Of a DNA stretch of 64,000 nt, positions 15,487-21,446 are shown in pieces; the stretch's first letter is position 1, and the number at the start of each line of letters is the position of its first letter. Origin of the DNA: Microcoleus sp. bin38.metabat.b11b12b14.051. GTDB taxonomy: Bacteria; Cyanobacteriota; Cyanobacteriia; Cyanobacteriales; Microcoleaceae. Below the pieces are notes generated by a model. The model made no database searches. It saw only the letters and a list, made by a program, of their open reading frames with translations, and was not told where the DNA came from. Made by a program: the position numbers and the translations under genes. The DNA lies in assembly GCF_013299165.1 (NCBI RefSeq), contig NZ_JAAFKD010000003.1, positions 247,381 through 311,380 of the forward strand, written 5' to 3'.

Positions 15487-15776
15487 TTAGTTGACTCGTT
15501 GATAATTTTGGCATACCTGAAGGCGCTGTTCAGGGTTTACGCAGTTGAATATAGCACTTTTAGGTAAGTTTGGCATAACTTTCGGATGTTTGTCAGGCTG
15601 CGTGCTTGTGGTTTGAGAAGGCAAGTCGTGGCGGTGGAGGCGATCGCACTTTTGACTCTCTGACTCCCCAATTTACTGGTAATGTGATATGTAGTGGCAT
15701 AAAAGGGCGATCGCGACTTAGCTCAATACTGTCTAATAATGCAGCTACCTGATTAATTTGAGAGAACCGTAAGACA

Positions 15777-17876
15777 ATGACAAAATATATACAGATAACG
15801 ATCCAAGAAATTGACCATACATCCCCCCATTTAGAAACTGTTATAGCCCTAGGTGATGCCAATAAAAAAACTCTGGGCTTTTTTACAGAAGGTGCTTTTC
15901 GCGAAAGTGCAAGAGATCGCGTGATACTTATAGCACTCAATCCTCAAAAAAATTGCATTGGCTATCTGCTTTACCGACCAGTGCGTCGCAGCAACATTAT
16001 TGTTATGGTTCATCTCTGCGTCGATCCTGCATATCGCGGTCGGGGTGTTACTAAACAGCTAGTCAATTCCCTCAGCCAAAAAACTCAGAATTTTTATGGA
16101 ATTCAACTCAAATGCCGTCGCGATTATGGAATAGACAGAATGTGGGAAACACTGGGTTTTATTCCTCTCAACGATCGGCCTGGAAGAAGTAAGGAGGGTA
16201 AACTGCTTACTGTTTGGTGGCTAGAACACAATCATCCTACCATATTTTCTTATGCTGCTAATCAGAAGCTTGAATCTAAACTTTGTGCAGTCATTGATAC
16301 CAGCGTTTTCTTTGAATTGCATGAAGATGAAGAGCTTAAAACTACAGAATCGGATTCTCTGCTCGCTGATTGGTTGCAGGATGACTTGGAGTTGTGCATT
16401 ACCGATGAAATATTTAAATCAATAAACAAAATTGATTGTGCTAGCTTAAGAGATAGCAAGCGTTGGCTGGCCAATAGTTTTACTCAGTTAGTACATAATA
16501 AAACCCGAATAGAAGGTATTTTAAATACTCTCAATCAAGTGTTTGCAAAGCAAGCTTCAACTCGCGACGTATCCCTAATAAATCAGTTAGCTATAACCAT
16601 CGCTTCTGATGCTCAAGTTTTTGTCACTCGTAACATAGAAGTCTTGAATTTAGCTGATGAAATTTATAAAAAATTCACACTGGAAGTAATTAGTCCAACA
16701 AATTTAATTTTAAAATTCGATGATATTCGCACAAATGTTGAATATCAACCTGTTCGCTTGGCAGGTACATCTATAAAGCTGAAACTCATCCAGAGATTTG
16801 AACAATCTCGCTTGATTGATAGTTTTAATGCTAGTGAAAAGGGCGAAATAGAGGGAGAGTTTCAACAACGGCTGCGCCACATTATTGCTAATCCCGATAA
16901 GTTTCAATGTTATGTTTTTTTAGAAAATGAAAATACACCCCTTGCTTTAATTGTTTTTGATCGACAGCAAACTTACGAACTAAAAGTGACAATTATGCGA
17001 GTTCGTCCAGGCGCTATAGCGGCTACGCTGGCACGGTATTTGGTTTTCTATTCTATATCACTCTCAGCCGATGAAAAGCGACAATTTACCAGAATTATTG
17101 ACCCCTATCTGGAAGAAACTGTTTTACAAGCTATTCAAGAAGATGCTTTTGTTCGAGTCGATAATGGGTATTTGAAGGCGAATCTTGCTGTTGCACAAAC
17201 ATCCACAGAACTATCTAAGTACCTTACGGAATTAGGTAAGATGGGATCAGAATATAATTTTTGCATTCAGCTCGCAGAAACTCTTACTATCAGCGAATCA
17301 ACTCAAGATATAAAGACTATATCAGAGATAGAACGTCACCTTTGGCCTGCTAAAGTTATTAATGCTGACTTGCCTACATTCATTATTCCTATTCAACCCA
17401 GATGGGCAAAAGATTTGTTCGACAAAGAGTTGGCTAACCAGTACCTCTTGGAATCTCAAACTGATCTAGCACTAAGACGCGAACTGGTGTACTATAAGCG
17501 AAATAATGGCAGTCTAAAACCTGGTGTTATTGGTAGAATTTTATGGTATGTTAGCTCCGATACAGCATTTACTGGGACACAAGAGGTTAAAGCTTGCTCT
17601 AAGTTAGATGAAGTTATCATAGACAAACCAGAAAAACTATATAGACAGTTCCGCCACCTAGGTGTATATAAATTAAAAAATTTAATGACAATAGCAAACA
17701 ACAAACCGGATGAAGATATTATGGCTCTAAGATTTAGTTACACCGAAATTTTCAATAAACCGCTGACATTAAAGAGGATTCGAGAAATACGGGAAAATCA
17801 AACAACGGTTCAAAGTTTATTTAAGATTTCAAAGGAACAATTCGCAATCATATATAATGAAGGAACCGCGACCTAA
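15777..17876 (+). CDS. Multidomain protein: GNAT acetyltransferase - PIN nuclease - GNAT-like - PUA-like
   Basis: 699 residues. Residues ~1-150 are a GNAT fold with acetyl-CoA loop RGRGVTKQL (87-95). Residues ~165-320 look like a PIN RNase: VIDTSVFFEL with D174, ELCITDEIFKSI, then ASDAQVFVTRNIEVLNLAD and VISPTNLI at the end. Residues ~340-480 resemble a second, degenerate GNAT domain (LALIVFDRQ ... MRVRPGAIAATLARYLV). Residues ~570-690 (GVIGRILWYVSSD ... FRHLGVYKL ... ALRFSYTEIFNKPL) look like a PUA/ASCH-type nucleic-acid-binding domain. The next gene is an ASCH protein 17 bp away, then mcrB and mcrC. The first GNAT and PIN are well supported; the last two domains are inference from pattern. 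Confidence 0.75.
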   Translation: MTKYIQITIQEIDHTSPHLETVIALGDANKKTLGFFTEGAFRESARDRVILIALNPQKNCIGYLLYRPVRRSNIIVMVHLCVDPAYRGRGVTKQLVNSLSQKTQNFYGIQLKCRRDYGIDRMWETLGFIPLNDRPGRSKEGKLLTVWWLEHNHPTIFSYAANQKLESKLCAVIDTSVFFELHEDEELKTTESDSLLADWLQDDLELCITDEIFKSINKIDCASLRDSKRWLANSFTQLVHNKTRIEGILNTLNQVFAKQASTRDVSLINQLAITIASDAQVFVTRNIEVLNLADEIYKKFTLEVISPTNLILKFDDIRTNVEYQPVRLAGTSIKLKLIQRFEQSRLIDSFNASEKGEIEGEFQQRLRHIIANPDKFQCYVFLENENTPLALIVFDRQQTYELKVTIMRVRPGAIAATLARYLVFYSISLSADEKRQFTRIIDPYLEETVLQAIQEDAFVRVDNGYLKANLAVAQTSTELSKYLTELGKMGSEYNFCIQLAETLTISESTQDIKTISEIERHLWPAKVINADLPTFIIPIQPRWAKDLFDKELANQYLLESQTDLALRRELVYYKRNNGSLKPGVIGRILWYVSSDTAFTGTQEVKACSKLDEVIIDKPEKLYRQFRHLGVYKLKNLMTIANNKPDEDIMALRFSYTEIFNKPLTLKRIREIRENQTTVQSLFKISKEQFAIIYNEGTAT

Positions 17877-17893
17877 ATAAAGGATTGTAACCC

Positions 17894-18331
17894 ATGTCAA
17901 GCATCTTGCTATTATCTATTCGACCGGAATACGCCAACCAAATATTCGACAGTAATAAAACTGTTGAATTGCGGCGCGTCCGCCCTCGATTATTGAACGA
18001 AGGCGATTTGGTATTAATTTACATTTCTTCCCCGACTAAAGCTGTATTCGGTTCATTCAAAGTGGATACTATCATAGAAAAACCAATTGCGGAACTTTGG
18101 GAGGAAGTTGAAGACAAAGCGGGCATTTCATCTGAAAAATTTTATGATTATTATCAAGGTACAAAAACAGGTATTGGAATTTTTCTTAAAGATATTCACA
18201 GGTTTAGCCAACCAGTAGACTTACACCGTTTAAGAAAAAAGTTGCCTGAGCTTAAACCACCACAAAGTTATCGTTACATCACGGATAAACAGTTGAGAAT
18301 AGTCTATTCTCTAGGAGAGTGTTCGAGATAA
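17894..18331 (+). CDS. ASCH-domain (PUA superfamily) protein
   Basis: 145 residues. The opening LLLSIRPEYANQIFDSNKTV, then ELRRVRP and DLVLIYISSPTKAVFGSFKV, is the ASCH/PUA-like pattern: a small beta barrel binding RNA or modified bases. The family includes RNA-binding regulators and some nucleases. It is tightly spaced after the GNAT-PIN gene (17 bp) and 45 bp before mcrB, so it is almost certainly co-transcribed. The partner roles (modified-base reader, or antitoxin to the PIN domain) are hypotheses. Start is the ATG at 17894, close behind an AAAGGA ribosome-binding site. Confidence 0.8.
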   Translation: MSSILLLSIRPEYANQIFDSNKTVELRRVRPRLLNEGDLVLIYISSPTKAVFGSFKVDTIIEKPIAELWEEVEDKAGISSEKFYDYYQGTKTGIGIFLKDIHRFSQPVDLHRLRKKLPELKPPQSYRYITDKQLRIVYSLGECSR

Positions 18332-18376
18332 ATATTTACCACAATAATTTAGTAATCAATAGTTGGCAAGAGCAGT

Positions 18377-19990
18377 ATGCTAGCGGAAAAAAAAGCTGAG
18401 TTCGTCAGGCTATTTCAGGAATTTGTCAGTTCATATCCCTACACTCCAGATGGGTTACGTCATAGGGCGGCTTACGACGAGCAGCGTCAGCAGGGACGTA
18501 GAAATTTTGAAGCGATCGCTTCTGCTGCTGAGTCTGGAAAAGATGTGACGGAATCCGTAATCTGGCAACTTCTACCTTACGAAGACTCTCATACTAATAG
18601 ACAAAAAGGGGCCTGGGTTCATATTAATCCGTGCACAACACAAGGGTTATTATGGACTTCAAAATTGTCTAAAGATTTGTCATTAATAACACCAGTAAGA
18701 ATTTCCCAATTAATTATCTATTTAGTCTGCTGTTGTAACGACGATCCGAGTCAGCTATCTTCTGCCTGTAGAAACTTTTCCGAAGAAATGCCAGCCTCCT
18801 TGTTCGGCGAGATAGGAATCTTAACACCTATCCTGAATGCTCTCCGTCCCGATGACTTTCTTGCGATTAATCACAAGTCAATACAGGTTATTAACTATTT
18901 CGCCAATACTTCGTATAGCAAAAAGCTAATAGACTACTCCTCTGCTAACTTCACCGGACACGAGCTGATTGAAGAATTAACCAAAGAAATGCACCAAAAT
19001 GGCGCTCCATCTATTCGAGATGACGATCTATTTGATATGTTCTGCCACTGGCTTGTCGAAATAAAAAAATATGACTTTCCTTGTAACGAAGTGCCACTCG
19101 TAGATGAGGAAATTGTGTTTGAATACGCAGTAGAAGAAGTAAAGTTACAGCCGGAATATTCTTTGAACCAATGTGCCGAAGAAACTGGTTTTCAAACAAC
19201 CCAACTAGCCCAATGGATACACACCATTAACCGCAAAGGCCAAACCATCATCCAAGGCCCGCCCGGAACCGGAAAAACATTCCTCGCCCAAAAACTTGCC
19301 CAACACTTAATCGGCGGCGGTGACGGTTTCTCAGACATTATCCAATTTCATCCAGCTTATACTTACGAAGACTTTATCGAAGGCCTCCGCCCAATAACTC
19401 AAAACGGACAATTAACCTACTCCATAGTTCCCGGTAGATTCCTCGAATTTTGCAAAAAAGCCGAAGCCCGTGAAGATACTTGCGTTCTCATTATTGATGA
19501 AATTAATCGCGCAAATTTATCTCAAGTCTTTGGCGAGTTAATGTATCTTCTAGATGACCGACAAGATACAAAACGTTTTATTACACTAGCTAGCGGTCAA
19601 AAGTTTAGAATCCCTACAAATGTCCGCATCATCGGTACAATGAACACCGCAGACCGTTCTATTGCCCTAGTCGATCAAGCCCTCCGCCGCCGCTTTGCAT
19701 TCATCTCTCTTTCTCCTAACTATGAACTGCTACAAAACTATCATAGTAGAGAAGAAACAGGTTTTCCAGTTGATAAATTAATTCGTATTCTAGAAAATGT
19801 CAATCGGGCCATTAACAACAAACATTATGAACTAGGCATCTCTTTCTTTTTGACAAAAACCTTAGCTGGAGATATCCAAGACATTTGGAAAATGGAAATT
19901 GAGCCATACCTTGAAGAATATTTCTTTGATAATCAGGAAAAAATGGATGAGTTTCTCTGGGATAATGTGGCTCTCCTGATTTTGTGGTGA
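18377..19990 (+). CDS. mcrB: McrB-type AAA+ GTPase of a modification-dependent restriction system
   Basis: 537 residues. The C-terminal half is the McrB AAA+ motor: Walker A GPPGTGKT (294-301), DFIEGLRP, Walker B VLIIDEINRANLSQVFGEL (from ~370) and the McrB signature MNTADRSIALVDQALRRRF (from 422). In this family GTP hydrolysis drives translocation and activates McrC. Residues 1-240 form the target-recognition part; no known DNA-binding domain was recognised there. Its order after the ASCH gene suggests that modified-base recognition may be shared. mcrC follows after a 274-bp gap instead of the usual overlap. Confidence 0.93.
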   Translation: MLAEKKAEFVRLFQEFVSSYPYTPDGLRHRAAYDEQRQQGRRNFEAIASAAESGKDVTESVIWQLLPYEDSHTNRQKGAWVHINPCTTQGLLWTSKLSKDLSLITPVRISQLIIYLVCCCNDDPSQLSSACRNFSEEMPASLFGEIGILTPILNALRPDDFLAINHKSIQVINYFANTSYSKKLIDYSSANFTGHELIEELTKEMHQNGAPSIRDDDLFDMFCHWLVEIKKYDFPCNEVPLVDEEIVFEYAVEEVKLQPEYSLNQCAEETGFQTTQLAQWIHTINRKGQTIIQGPPGTGKTFLAQKLAQHLIGGGDGFSDIIQFHPAYTYEDFIEGLRPITQNGQLTYSIVPGRFLEFCKKAEAREDTCVLIIDEINRANLSQVFGELMYLLDDRQDTKRFITLASGQKFRIPTNVRIIGTMNTADRSIALVDQALRRRFAFISLSPNYELLQNYHSREETGFPVDKLIRILENVNRAINNKHYELGISFFLTKTLAGDIQDIWKMEIEPYLEEYFFDNQEKMDEFLWDNVALLILW

Positions 19991-20264
19991 TAAGCAAACC
20001 GCATATCCTTACTCAGAGCGCATCACAAAATCGCGAACAATTATGCTTTATACCGTATACACCATAAACCCAGGAGAGCCGATAAAGTCAAAGAGAAATT
20101 GAGCGATTGAGAATCTAACGCTATTATCAATAATACGGCGTCACAGCATCTATGAAACAATACGGGTAAGTTTAAGACAGTTCTTGAGGGAAAAATGTGT
20201 GAAAAATAGATACTGCGATTGCTTCGTTCCTCGCAATGACAACTACTAACTTAATCGTATTCCT
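19991..20264. other. Gap between mcrB and mcrC
   Basis: 274 bp without a convincing gene. It contains GCGATTGCTTCGTTCCTCGCAATGAC near 20215, a common cyanobacterial short inverted repeat (GCGATTGC/GCAATGAC partial), probably inserted between genes that normally abut. There is no sign of extra McrB or McrC codons. Confidence 0.5.
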
Positions 20265-21446
20265 ATGAAACGAGAATTACCCCTAATTATTGAACTCACA
20301 GAATATCAATTAGCAATCTTTGACAGAGAGGCAATCCCGGAATTGGTAGGAGAGAAAATCTACCAGAATTATGCCAAGGAAATAGATATAGAGTTTCCCA
20401 ACCCTAAAACTAAATATAAATGGCAATTAAAATCTAGAGGCGTTGTTGGCAATATTCCCATCACTCCAGAATTTCACATTGTCATCAAGCCAAAAGTTCC
20501 GATCGCAAATTTATTCGGAATGCTTGAGTATGCCTACGAACTTAAGATAAATTTTCCGAAAGGACAGATAGAGTGCGAATCTTTGGAACAAGTATATGAA
20601 CGATTAGCTAACATCCTTGCTCATAAAATTCTCGAACGCTGTCGCAAAGGATTATATCGCGATTACTTACCCAAAAGAGAAAACCTTTCCTATATTCGCG
20701 GTCGGATTGATGTCCGGGAAGCTGTGCAAAAACCTTGGGAAGTTAAACTAAAATGCCACTATAACGAACAAACAGGCGATATCGAAGATAATCAAATTAT
20801 GGCTTGGACACTTTTCATTATTGGGCGTAGCGGTTTGTGCCGCGAATCTGTCTCATCGACGGTGCGAAAAGCTTTTCATGCACTTCAAGGATTTGTTACT
20901 CTAAAATCTTTTAAACCTCAAGCTTGTATCGATAGAAATTATCACCGTTTGAATCAAGATTATCAAATATTACACGCCCTCTGTCGCTTCTTTCTGGAAA
21001 ATACTGGGCCAAGTCATGAAAAAGGCGATCGCGAAATGCTACCTTTTCTGATAAACATGGCTAGTTTATACGAACAATTTGTCGCTGAATGGCTCAAGGC
21101 AAATACACCAAAAGGCTTTTTTGTCCAGCAACAACGGCGAGTCATACATGACGAAAATTATTCCGATCGCATTGACTTACTTCTGTGCGATATTGAAACA
21201 GCACAAGTTCAATACGTCCTCGATACCAAATACAAAGCTCCCGATCGAGTAGCCAGTAGTGACCGTCATCAAATAATTGCCTACGCAACAGCAGTAAACT
21301 GTAAAAATGCAATTCTCATTTACCCGCAAGACCTCAAACAGCCACTAGACAAGAAATTTGGGGATATCCAAGTTCGCAGTCTAAAATTTTCCCTAGATGA
21401 CGATCTCAATGAAGCCGGAAAAACATTCTTAACCTTTCTACGTTGA
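20265..21446 (+). CDS. mcrC: McrC-like nuclease subunit of the McrBC system
   Basis: 393 residues. The N-terminal part (residues ~1-140) matches McrC: KYKWQLKSRGVVGNIPI and IKPKVPIANLFGMLEYAY, followed by YIRGRIDVREAV. The C-terminal PD-(D/E)XK nuclease core is visible: SDRIDLLLCD with D304 and YVLDTKYK with D320-T-K322, followed by HQIIAYATAV. In McrBC systems this subunit cuts DNA when the McrB ring has bound modified targets. It completes the four-gene cassette that starts with the GNAT-PIN protein. Intact by length and motifs. Confidence 0.9.
   Translation: MKRELPLIIELTEYQLAIFDREAIPELVGEKIYQNYAKEIDIEFPNPKTKYKWQLKSRGVVGNIPITPEFHIVIKPKVPIANLFGMLEYAYELKINFPKGQIECESLEQVYERLANILAHKILERCRKGLYRDYLPKRENLSYIRGRIDVREAVQKPWEVKLKCHYNEQTGDIEDNQIMAWTLFIIGRSGLCRESVSSTVRKAFHALQGFVTLKSFKPQACIDRNYHRLNQDYQILHALCRFFLENTGPSHEKGDREMLPFLINMASLYEQFVAEWLKANTPKGFFVQQQRRVIHDENYSDRIDLLLCDIETAQVQYVLDTKYKAPDRVASSDRHQIIAYATAVNCKNAILIYPQDLKQPLDKKFGDIQVRSLKFSLDDDLNEAGKTFLTFLR

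Follow-up and report, generated by a model that had tools for sequence, protein, structure and literature searches.

A cyanobacterial McrBC cassette with a candidate exchangeable recognition block of a GNAT-PIN-EVE fusion, ASCH, and the McrB N-domain

Gene content of the cassette

The stretch analyzed here, referred to as the window, comprises 64,000 nucleotides of a 7.07 Mb Microcoleus genome, and all positions are numbered within it. It carries a cassette of four genes on the forward strand, separated by 17, 45, and 274 bp: gene 1, a 699-aa fusion of GNAT, PIN-like, GNAT-like, and EVE-like parts (15777..17876); gene 2, a free ASCH protein of 145 aa (17894..18331); and genes 3 and 4, encoding the McrB (537 aa, 18377..19990) and McrC (393 aa, 20265..21446) components of an McrBC restriction enzyme. 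The open reading frames (ORFs) and gaps match the initial annotation of the bare sequence, in which four genes of one orientation had been described with the first three 17 and 45 bp apart, and the gene order is kept across genera. Sequence comparison of orthologous loci indicates that gene 1, ASCH, and the N-terminal domain of McrB behave as a single exchangeable block (15583..19183, no strand; break points approximate) in place of the usual recognition part of McrB.

Two collections were compared with the window, namely 386 cyanobacterial genomes (G-numbers) and a set of genome contigs in which the best 80 of 137 confirmed gene 1 relatives define 79 loci; individual loci carry L-numbers throughout.

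In known McrBC systems, a modified base is read by the N-terminal part of McrB, translocation is the work of the GTPase, and cleavage is that of McrC (PMC12707154; PMC3874153). The McrB of the cassette was assigned by sequence and by structure comparison of its AAA+ GTPase part (aa 258–532, 19148..19972), which matches E. coli McrB with Z 25.8 and a root-mean-square deviation (rmsd) of 2.9 over 270 aligned residues. Walker A and B are intact, the signature reads MNTADRS (NxxD), and residues K300, D374, E375, N423, and D426 are found in all 37 copies that cover them (two of 39 copies do not). McrC matches Pfam PF10117 at 4.1e-44, and its PD-(D/E)xK residues D304, D320, and K322 recur in 36/36 covering copies, one of the 37 copies not covering them. 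The intact Walker and nuclease motifs read initially from the sequence are thus borne out.

The N-terminal domain of McrB (aa 1–248, 18377..19120; McrB-N) has no match in Pfam or among PDB sequences, and it remained unmatched when the whole McrB was scanned against NCBIfam and PADLOC. It is modeled as helical, with separate helices of at most 29 residues. McrB homologs by any part occur in 71 of the 386 genomes (E ≤ 1e-20). Matches that include McrB-N are confined to 13 genomes, all of which carry it beside gene 1 and ASCH, and the remaining McrBs, with identities reaching 86% within the same genus, align only from about residue 249. Across 33 cassettes, McrB-N has a mean distance of 0.94 versus 0.43 for the AAA part. 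CoCoNuT systems, whose McrB is fused to long coiled-coils and whose GTPase signature is of the NxD type (PMC11090510), were considered; membership was rejected on the NxxD signature and the short helices of McrB-N, the latter judged from the model and not from a coiled-coil prediction.

Gene 1 was modeled by AlphaFold2 with a predicted local distance difference test (pLDDT) score of 86.9. Its first domain, GNAT 1 (aa 2–153, 15780..16235), is modeled with a GNAT fold resembling Ard1/NAA50-type proteins (best row Z 19.1, rmsd 2.8, 146 aligned), and aa 46–116 match PF00583 at 1.1e-7, in agreement with the acetyltransferase bearing an RGRGV loop that had been proposed for this end of the protein; RGRGV and D174 are both present. 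Across 48 relatives, 31 columns of gene 1 are invariant, which were assigned by the analyst to GNAT 1 (8: Y63, L80, C113, R114, D116, W123, F128, and W147), the PIN-like domain (2), residues 323–458 (5), and residue 519 onward (16).

The PIN-like domain (aa 166–322, 16272..16742) gives no Pfam PIN match at E ≤ 1 in the window protein. Among relatives, a PIN_3 match is obtained for 12 of the 16 PIN segments that were aligned (best 2.5e-7), and the window segment aligns with 22 genuine PIN_3 proteins at an hhalign probability of 92.8 in global mode; the PIN domain read initially from D174 and its surroundings is therefore retained as a predicted fold, through relatives only. Searches of the PDB with a profile of PIN segments returned eight matches, none of them a PIN protein, and two single PIN segments returned none; no PIN_3 was found in the window's own genome. 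The third part (aa 330–519, 16764..17333) has a GNAT-like order of strands and helices in the predicted model and no GNAT match in Pfam, so that the degenerate GNAT suggested earlier stands as a likeness of predicted secondary structure only.

The C-terminal domain of gene 1 (aa 520–699, 17334..17873) is like the PUA/EVE/ASCH kind. Residues 520–692 match PADLOC PDC-M11A at 1.2e-10, and the Zymomonas mobilis ASCH protein (ZmASCH) is among the Foldseek rows at 6.9e-8, without a stated range; a PDB profile of the domain found no match. The PUA/ASCH-like C-terminus of the initial annotation is favored by PADLOC and Foldseek, with Pfam EVE remaining below its cut-off. Structure comparison of the gene 1 and McrB models gave rows for GNAT 1 and for the AAA part of McrB and none for the PIN-like domain, the second GNAT, or McrB-N, which is not evidence against them.

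Gene 2, previously called a free ASCH protein, indeed matches ASCH in Pfam (3.4e-6) and PDC-M11B in PADLOC (1.4e-35), and it is a sequence relative of ZmASCH (PDB 5gus; 5.1e-16), a weak single-strand RNase in vitro (PMC5615036). Tyr47, Lys53, and Ser128 of ZmASCH align with Y43, K49, and S125 of gene 2. Among 77 copies, K22, E25, R27, and Y43 are invariant, K49 is found in 47, and S125 in 66. By this likeness, gene 2 may have a weak RNase role.

Association of gene 1 and ASCH with McrBC

A gene 1 match was found in 17 of the 386 cyanobacterial genomes, comprising 14 full-length copies (30–56% identity, the window's own genome included), one split copy (G255), and two partial copies (G101 and G197). 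Of the 15 genomes whose gene 1 is full-length or split, 13 have an McrB with McrB-N next to gene 1 and ASCH, and the other two (G103 and G066) have the pair without such an McrB. All four genes are present in 11 of the 13 cassette genomes (the window and ten others, including G255); of the remaining two, G030 is cut by a contig end and G340 has a broken McrB and no McrC match.

In the second collection, ASCH follows gene 1 in 77/79 loci at a median gap of 20 bp, the two loci without it being affected by a deletion (L051) and a contig end (L074). McrB follows gene 1 in 39/79 loci, always with McrB-N and always on the same strand, McrC is found in 37, and both in 36; the next commonest neighbor family of gene 1 occurs at 11 loci. 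The initial annotation had tied the GNAT-PIN and ASCH genes to McrBC, placing PUA-superfamily domains and a GNAT beside a modification-dependent nuclease, and this arrangement recurs in 13/15 genomes and 39/79 loci. A local chance association is rejected, given that all 13 genomes with McrB-N have it beside the pair and that the McrB following gene 1 has McrB-N at 39/39 loci.

Gene 1 and ASCH stand without an McrB or McrC match at 38 of the 79 loci, 25 of them in Streptomyces. The commonest neighbor family besides ASCH at these Streptomyces loci (within L087–L115) is a 383-aa protein encoded just upstream of gene 1 on the same strand (7/25); at the 13 other stand-alone loci, it is a 304-aa protein, mostly on the opposite strand (6/13).

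Several cassettes show further variation. In two Scytonemataceae, ASCH and mcrB are separated by an additional gene of 382 aa (L065 12781–13929; L070 12902–14050), and Okeania has a further, fragmented mcrB-like copy between the mcrB and mcrC of the cassette (L054 15686–17590; L058 15743–17800). Decaying cassettes include L031, where McrB contains stops and McrC finds no match, L051, where gene 1 is cut and runs into McrC, L034, with gene 1 in two ORFs, and L052, with a stop in gene 1.

Exchange of the block at orthologous mcrBC loci

Comparison with cassette loci covered the ten non-cassette McrB loci of highest bit score. All ten lie at a place that holds the cassette in a relative, nine sharing both flanks and L193 the left neighbor only. 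In four lineages, relatives have the same chromosomal mcrBC locus without genes 1 and 2 and with an unrelated McrB N-domain; homology ends just upstream of gene 1 and restarts at McrB residue ~255–271, in every case close to where the AAA part begins.

Homology of the window with L190 and L192 runs to 15582 and 15571, respectively, and restarts at 19184. Compared with L191 and L194, which have extra sequence downstream of mcrC, it runs to 15582 and restarts at 19184 and 19170, respectively, and compared with L193 it runs to 15290 and restarts at 19140. The window and L190–L194 share 80–85% protein identity in the McrB AAA part and 77–87% in McrC. The three further lineages (L028 versus L196 and L198; L023 versus L197 and L199; L029 and L034 versus L195) have left breaks ~50–260 bp before gene 1 and right breaks near McrB residue 258–271. 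Three Microcoleus-type loci (L037, L038, and L042) hold the cassette at the window's own place, so that both alleles exist at that locus. The alternative N-domains form the groups L190/L191/L192/L194/L196, L197/L199, L195, L193 (TPR repeats), and L198 (short), and hhalign detected no relation between the cassette N-domain and those compared with it (five, two, and one sequences). The recurrence of this replacement at orthologous loci in four lineages argues that gene 1, ASCH, and McrB-N are exchanged as one block.

The TPR-repeat variant is a 747-aa McrB with the repeats in its N-terminal part (L193 8249–10492). In G103, the stand-alone gene 1 and ASCH (L032 8204–10836) lie elsewhere than the mcrBC with another N-domain (L198), at whose place the relative L028 has the cassette. 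In the gene 1 tree, the window is placed next to Microcoleus copies. Compared with L042, it is 95–100% identical per 40-residue stretch over McrB residues 1–360 and 65% identical over residues 441–480, with 93% identity in gene 1, 84% in ASCH, and 89% in McrC, an unevenness hinting that recombination also occurs within the cassette.

Catalytic residues of the PIN-like domain and GNAT 1

The 22 genuine PIN_3 proteins carry an acid opposite window positions 174, 215, 264, 267, and 286 in 21, 15, 22, 22, and 9 cases, respectively, where the window has D174, S215, D264, L267, and N286. The last of these was dropped as a lost acid, as 12/22 genuine PIN_3 proteins have Asn in that column. With S215 and L267 in place of acids, a PIN RNase as the effector is rejected for the window copy, and the RNA cutting that the initial annotation had assigned to this domain is not upheld. 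The PIN part as a whole is optional in the PDC-M11 family; the absence of the two acids from the window concerns function more than membership.

Residues at these positions were counted in 78 rows, consisting of the window and 77 of the 79 loci (the fragments L074 and L105 were omitted). The acids at 174, 215, 264, and 267 are all kept in 0/40 McrBC-linked rows, 6/13 stand-alone rows (cyanobacteria, Scalindua, and Verrucomicrobia), and 1/25 Streptomyces rows. An acid at 215 alone is found in 3/40, 12/13, and 17/25, respectively. The PIN of the McrBC-linked group is thus probably inactive. The 264/267 acid pair is kept by only 1/25 Streptomyces copies and is missing from 7/13 other stand-alone copies; PIN decay is therefore not confined to the McrBC group, and activity is doubtful in many stand-alone copies as well, in Streptomyces above all. 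The contrast at 215 between McrBC-linked and stand-alone rows gives a Fisher p of 2e-8, a value that ignores descent, and a tree-based comparison yields 1 to 3 independent pairs and no significance. The contrast was rejected as proof, as it lies between clades and does not represent independent events. Monophyly of the 40 McrBC-linked rows is rejected by an approximately unbiased (AU) test (p 0.024), and a single gain of McrBC is therefore unsupported.

A loop pattern in GNAT 1 that we take to mark acetyl-CoA binding is kept in 27/40 McrBC-linked, 9/13 stand-alone, and 21/25 Streptomyces copies. Since most copies keep it, GNAT 1 may be active in most, not all, of them.

Flanking sequence, mobility, and other occurrences

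Two genes precede the cassette, one for an FAD oxidoreductase and one for a valyl-tRNA synthetase on the other strand; the gene downstream is presumably a phosphoribulokinase. Relative to the siblings L190 and L191, the window has extra sequence between mcrB and mcrC (19966..20253, no strand). It contains a genome-wide repeat: a 303-base query gives 47 matches in the window's own genome, mostly to the 3′ part of the query. The extra sequence is probably outside the function of the cassette.

The cassette is also found on plasmids. One of them, pCAL6303.01 (Calothrix PCC 6303), is typed as mobilizable and has an Eco29kI-family enzyme and a cytosine methyltransferase beside the cassette. The other belongs to Nostoc CENA543, and its McrB is broken. 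A Prevotella record holds a gene 1 relative of 28.9% identity with ASCH and no McrBC match. A scan of viral_contigs gave 23 pattern matches and no relative, and phage records gave no match, both at the sensitivity used. Elsewhere in the window's own genome (contig C41, L036 8394–11054), an 886-aa UvrD-type helicase is followed by an ASCH domain (aa 554–632); its gene adjoins a RecT gene, and a phage-type integrase lies further along.

Discussion

The cassette probably represents a form of type IV (McrBC) restriction whose targets would be recognized by an exchangeable block instead of one recognition domain within McrB. The exchanged block spans the reading part of McrB together with gene 1 and ASCH, and the simplest account is therefore that all three form the reading unit. 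The block encodes three parts, namely the gene 1 fusion, the free ASCH protein, and the special McrB N-domain. Judging by their superfamily, the EVE-like and ASCH parts would bind modified or otherwise foreign nucleic acid, and McrB-N would dock onto them, after which the McrB GTPase would translocate and McrC would cut DNA. GNAT 1, with its conserved putative pocket, may provide a licensing step by acetylating a nucleic acid or a partner, and the PIN-like and second GNAT-like parts probably serve for the most part as scaffold. A more far-reaching version is put forward tentatively: a separable reader unit that combines an acetyltransferase, a disused RNase fold, and two domains of the PUA superfamily might re-aim an unchanged McrBC motor and nuclease, with GNAT 1 chemically marking the target or the partner before cleavage, as a type IV counterpart of the exchangeable specificity subunit in type I systems.

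Four results weigh against recognition by the block. The 38 loci without McrB or McrC imply that gene 1 and ASCH can act alone. Across the 33 cassettes, distances of gene 1 correlate with those of McrC (r 0.80) and the McrB AAA part (0.76) better than with those of McrB-N (0.66), and co-divergence therefore does not single out McrB-N as the partner. Pfam EVE scores the gene 1 C-terminus at 0.014, under its cut-off, and does so in 2/15 members. Finally, the proposed docking part, McrB-N, is without a known fold match in a structure search that barely probed it.

The stand-alone loci, together with G103 and G066, would suit an independent toxin-antitoxin-like or abortive pair that rides with McrBC, in which case the block would consist of two neighboring defense units with a crossover inside mcrB; toxin-antitoxin roles have been proposed for operons of this kind (Bell et al., 2020; PMC7641849). 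This explanation is unlikely, as McrB-N never occurs without gene 1 and ASCH among the 386 genomes, every McrB adjacent to gene 1 has the cassette N-domain (39/39 loci), and the same block limits recur in four lineages. Alternatively, gene 1 and ASCH might regulate or license McrBC, by way of expression, self-protection, or acetylation of McrB-N, with McrB-N itself serving as an unknown DNA reader. The reader position of McrB-N, its divergence relative to the AAA part, and the good conservation of GNAT 1 would fit such a role, but the block contains two more PUA-superfamily domains, which are easier to read as readers, and we regard regulation as distinctly improbable. The layered system envisaged initially, with readers for modified nucleic acid, a PIN that cleaves RNA, and an McrBC that cleaves DNA, draws on the PIN-like fold with D174 and D264 and on gene 2 residues important for the weak RNase activity of ZmASCH, but is scarcely credible for a group in which no McrBC-linked row combines the four PIN acids and 3/40 have the acid at 215.

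Operons of (PIN)-GNAT-EVE and ASCH were described by Bell et al. (2020; PMC7641849), where the family was termed experimentally uncharacterized. As in those operons, PIN, GNAT, and EVE-like parts are joined here in one protein, an ASCH gene lies in the operon, and restriction systems are near. In the described class, PIN is N-terminal and the neighbors are type I restriction-modification systems, whereas in the cassette a further GNAT precedes PIN, PIN acids are missing, and the partner is an McrBC with its own N-domain; the accessible text of that paper gives no McrBC partner for the class. The pair likewise resembles PDC-M11 of PADLOC, with ASCH directly after the fusion gene, gene 2 corresponding to PDC-M11B and the gene 1 C-terminus to PDC-M11A. 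The PDC-M11A models, of 376, 486, and 501 aa, do not cover the N-terminal GNAT of the cassette, and McrBC is outside the PDC-M11 pair; of these models, the 486-aa one aligns with the PIN part in L060 and L114 and with the C-terminal part in other members. Genes 1 and 2 are thus an extended form of the catalogued (PIN)-GNAT-EVE and ASCH pair (PDC-M11), and the pair itself is not new. In the open-licence literature, none of the matches listed ties this pair to McrBC, no paper on PDC-M11 was found, and PIN-GNAT-EVE appears in PMC7641849 only. Within this limited, partly accessible literature, the extra GNAT, the McrBC partnership, the dedicated McrB domain, and the block exchange were not met.

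The McrBC of the cassette shares with that of E. coli K-12 the pairing of an AAA+ GTPase with a PD-(D/E)xK nuclease. The E. coli McrB has a methylcytosine reader of its own (DUF3578), whereas the cassette has an N-domain unmatched to a known reader and two extra genes. ZmASCH is described without a McrBC link in the available part of its report (PMC5615036), unlike gene 2, which sits with McrBC. Alternative restriction alleles at one chromosomal place are known from the DpnI/DpnII/DpnIII cassettes and the immigration control region of E. coli (PMC12707154); as presented there, whole enzymes are swapped, whereas the block described here ends inside mcrB and leaves motor and nuclease in place. 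Exchange of the block between relatives suggests a new way of re-aiming McrBC defense.

In the prevailing view, type IV enzymes detect modified DNA with a domain that is fused to McrB; in the cassette, this task seems to have passed to separate genes that are exchanged together with McrB-N as a block. The (PIN)-GNAT-EVE/ASCH family would thereby gain a defined partner and a testable job. Furthermore, several cyanobacterial lineages hold natural allele pairs with the same locus, motor, and nuclease and a different putative reader, in which the specificity of the block would be measurable by direct swap.

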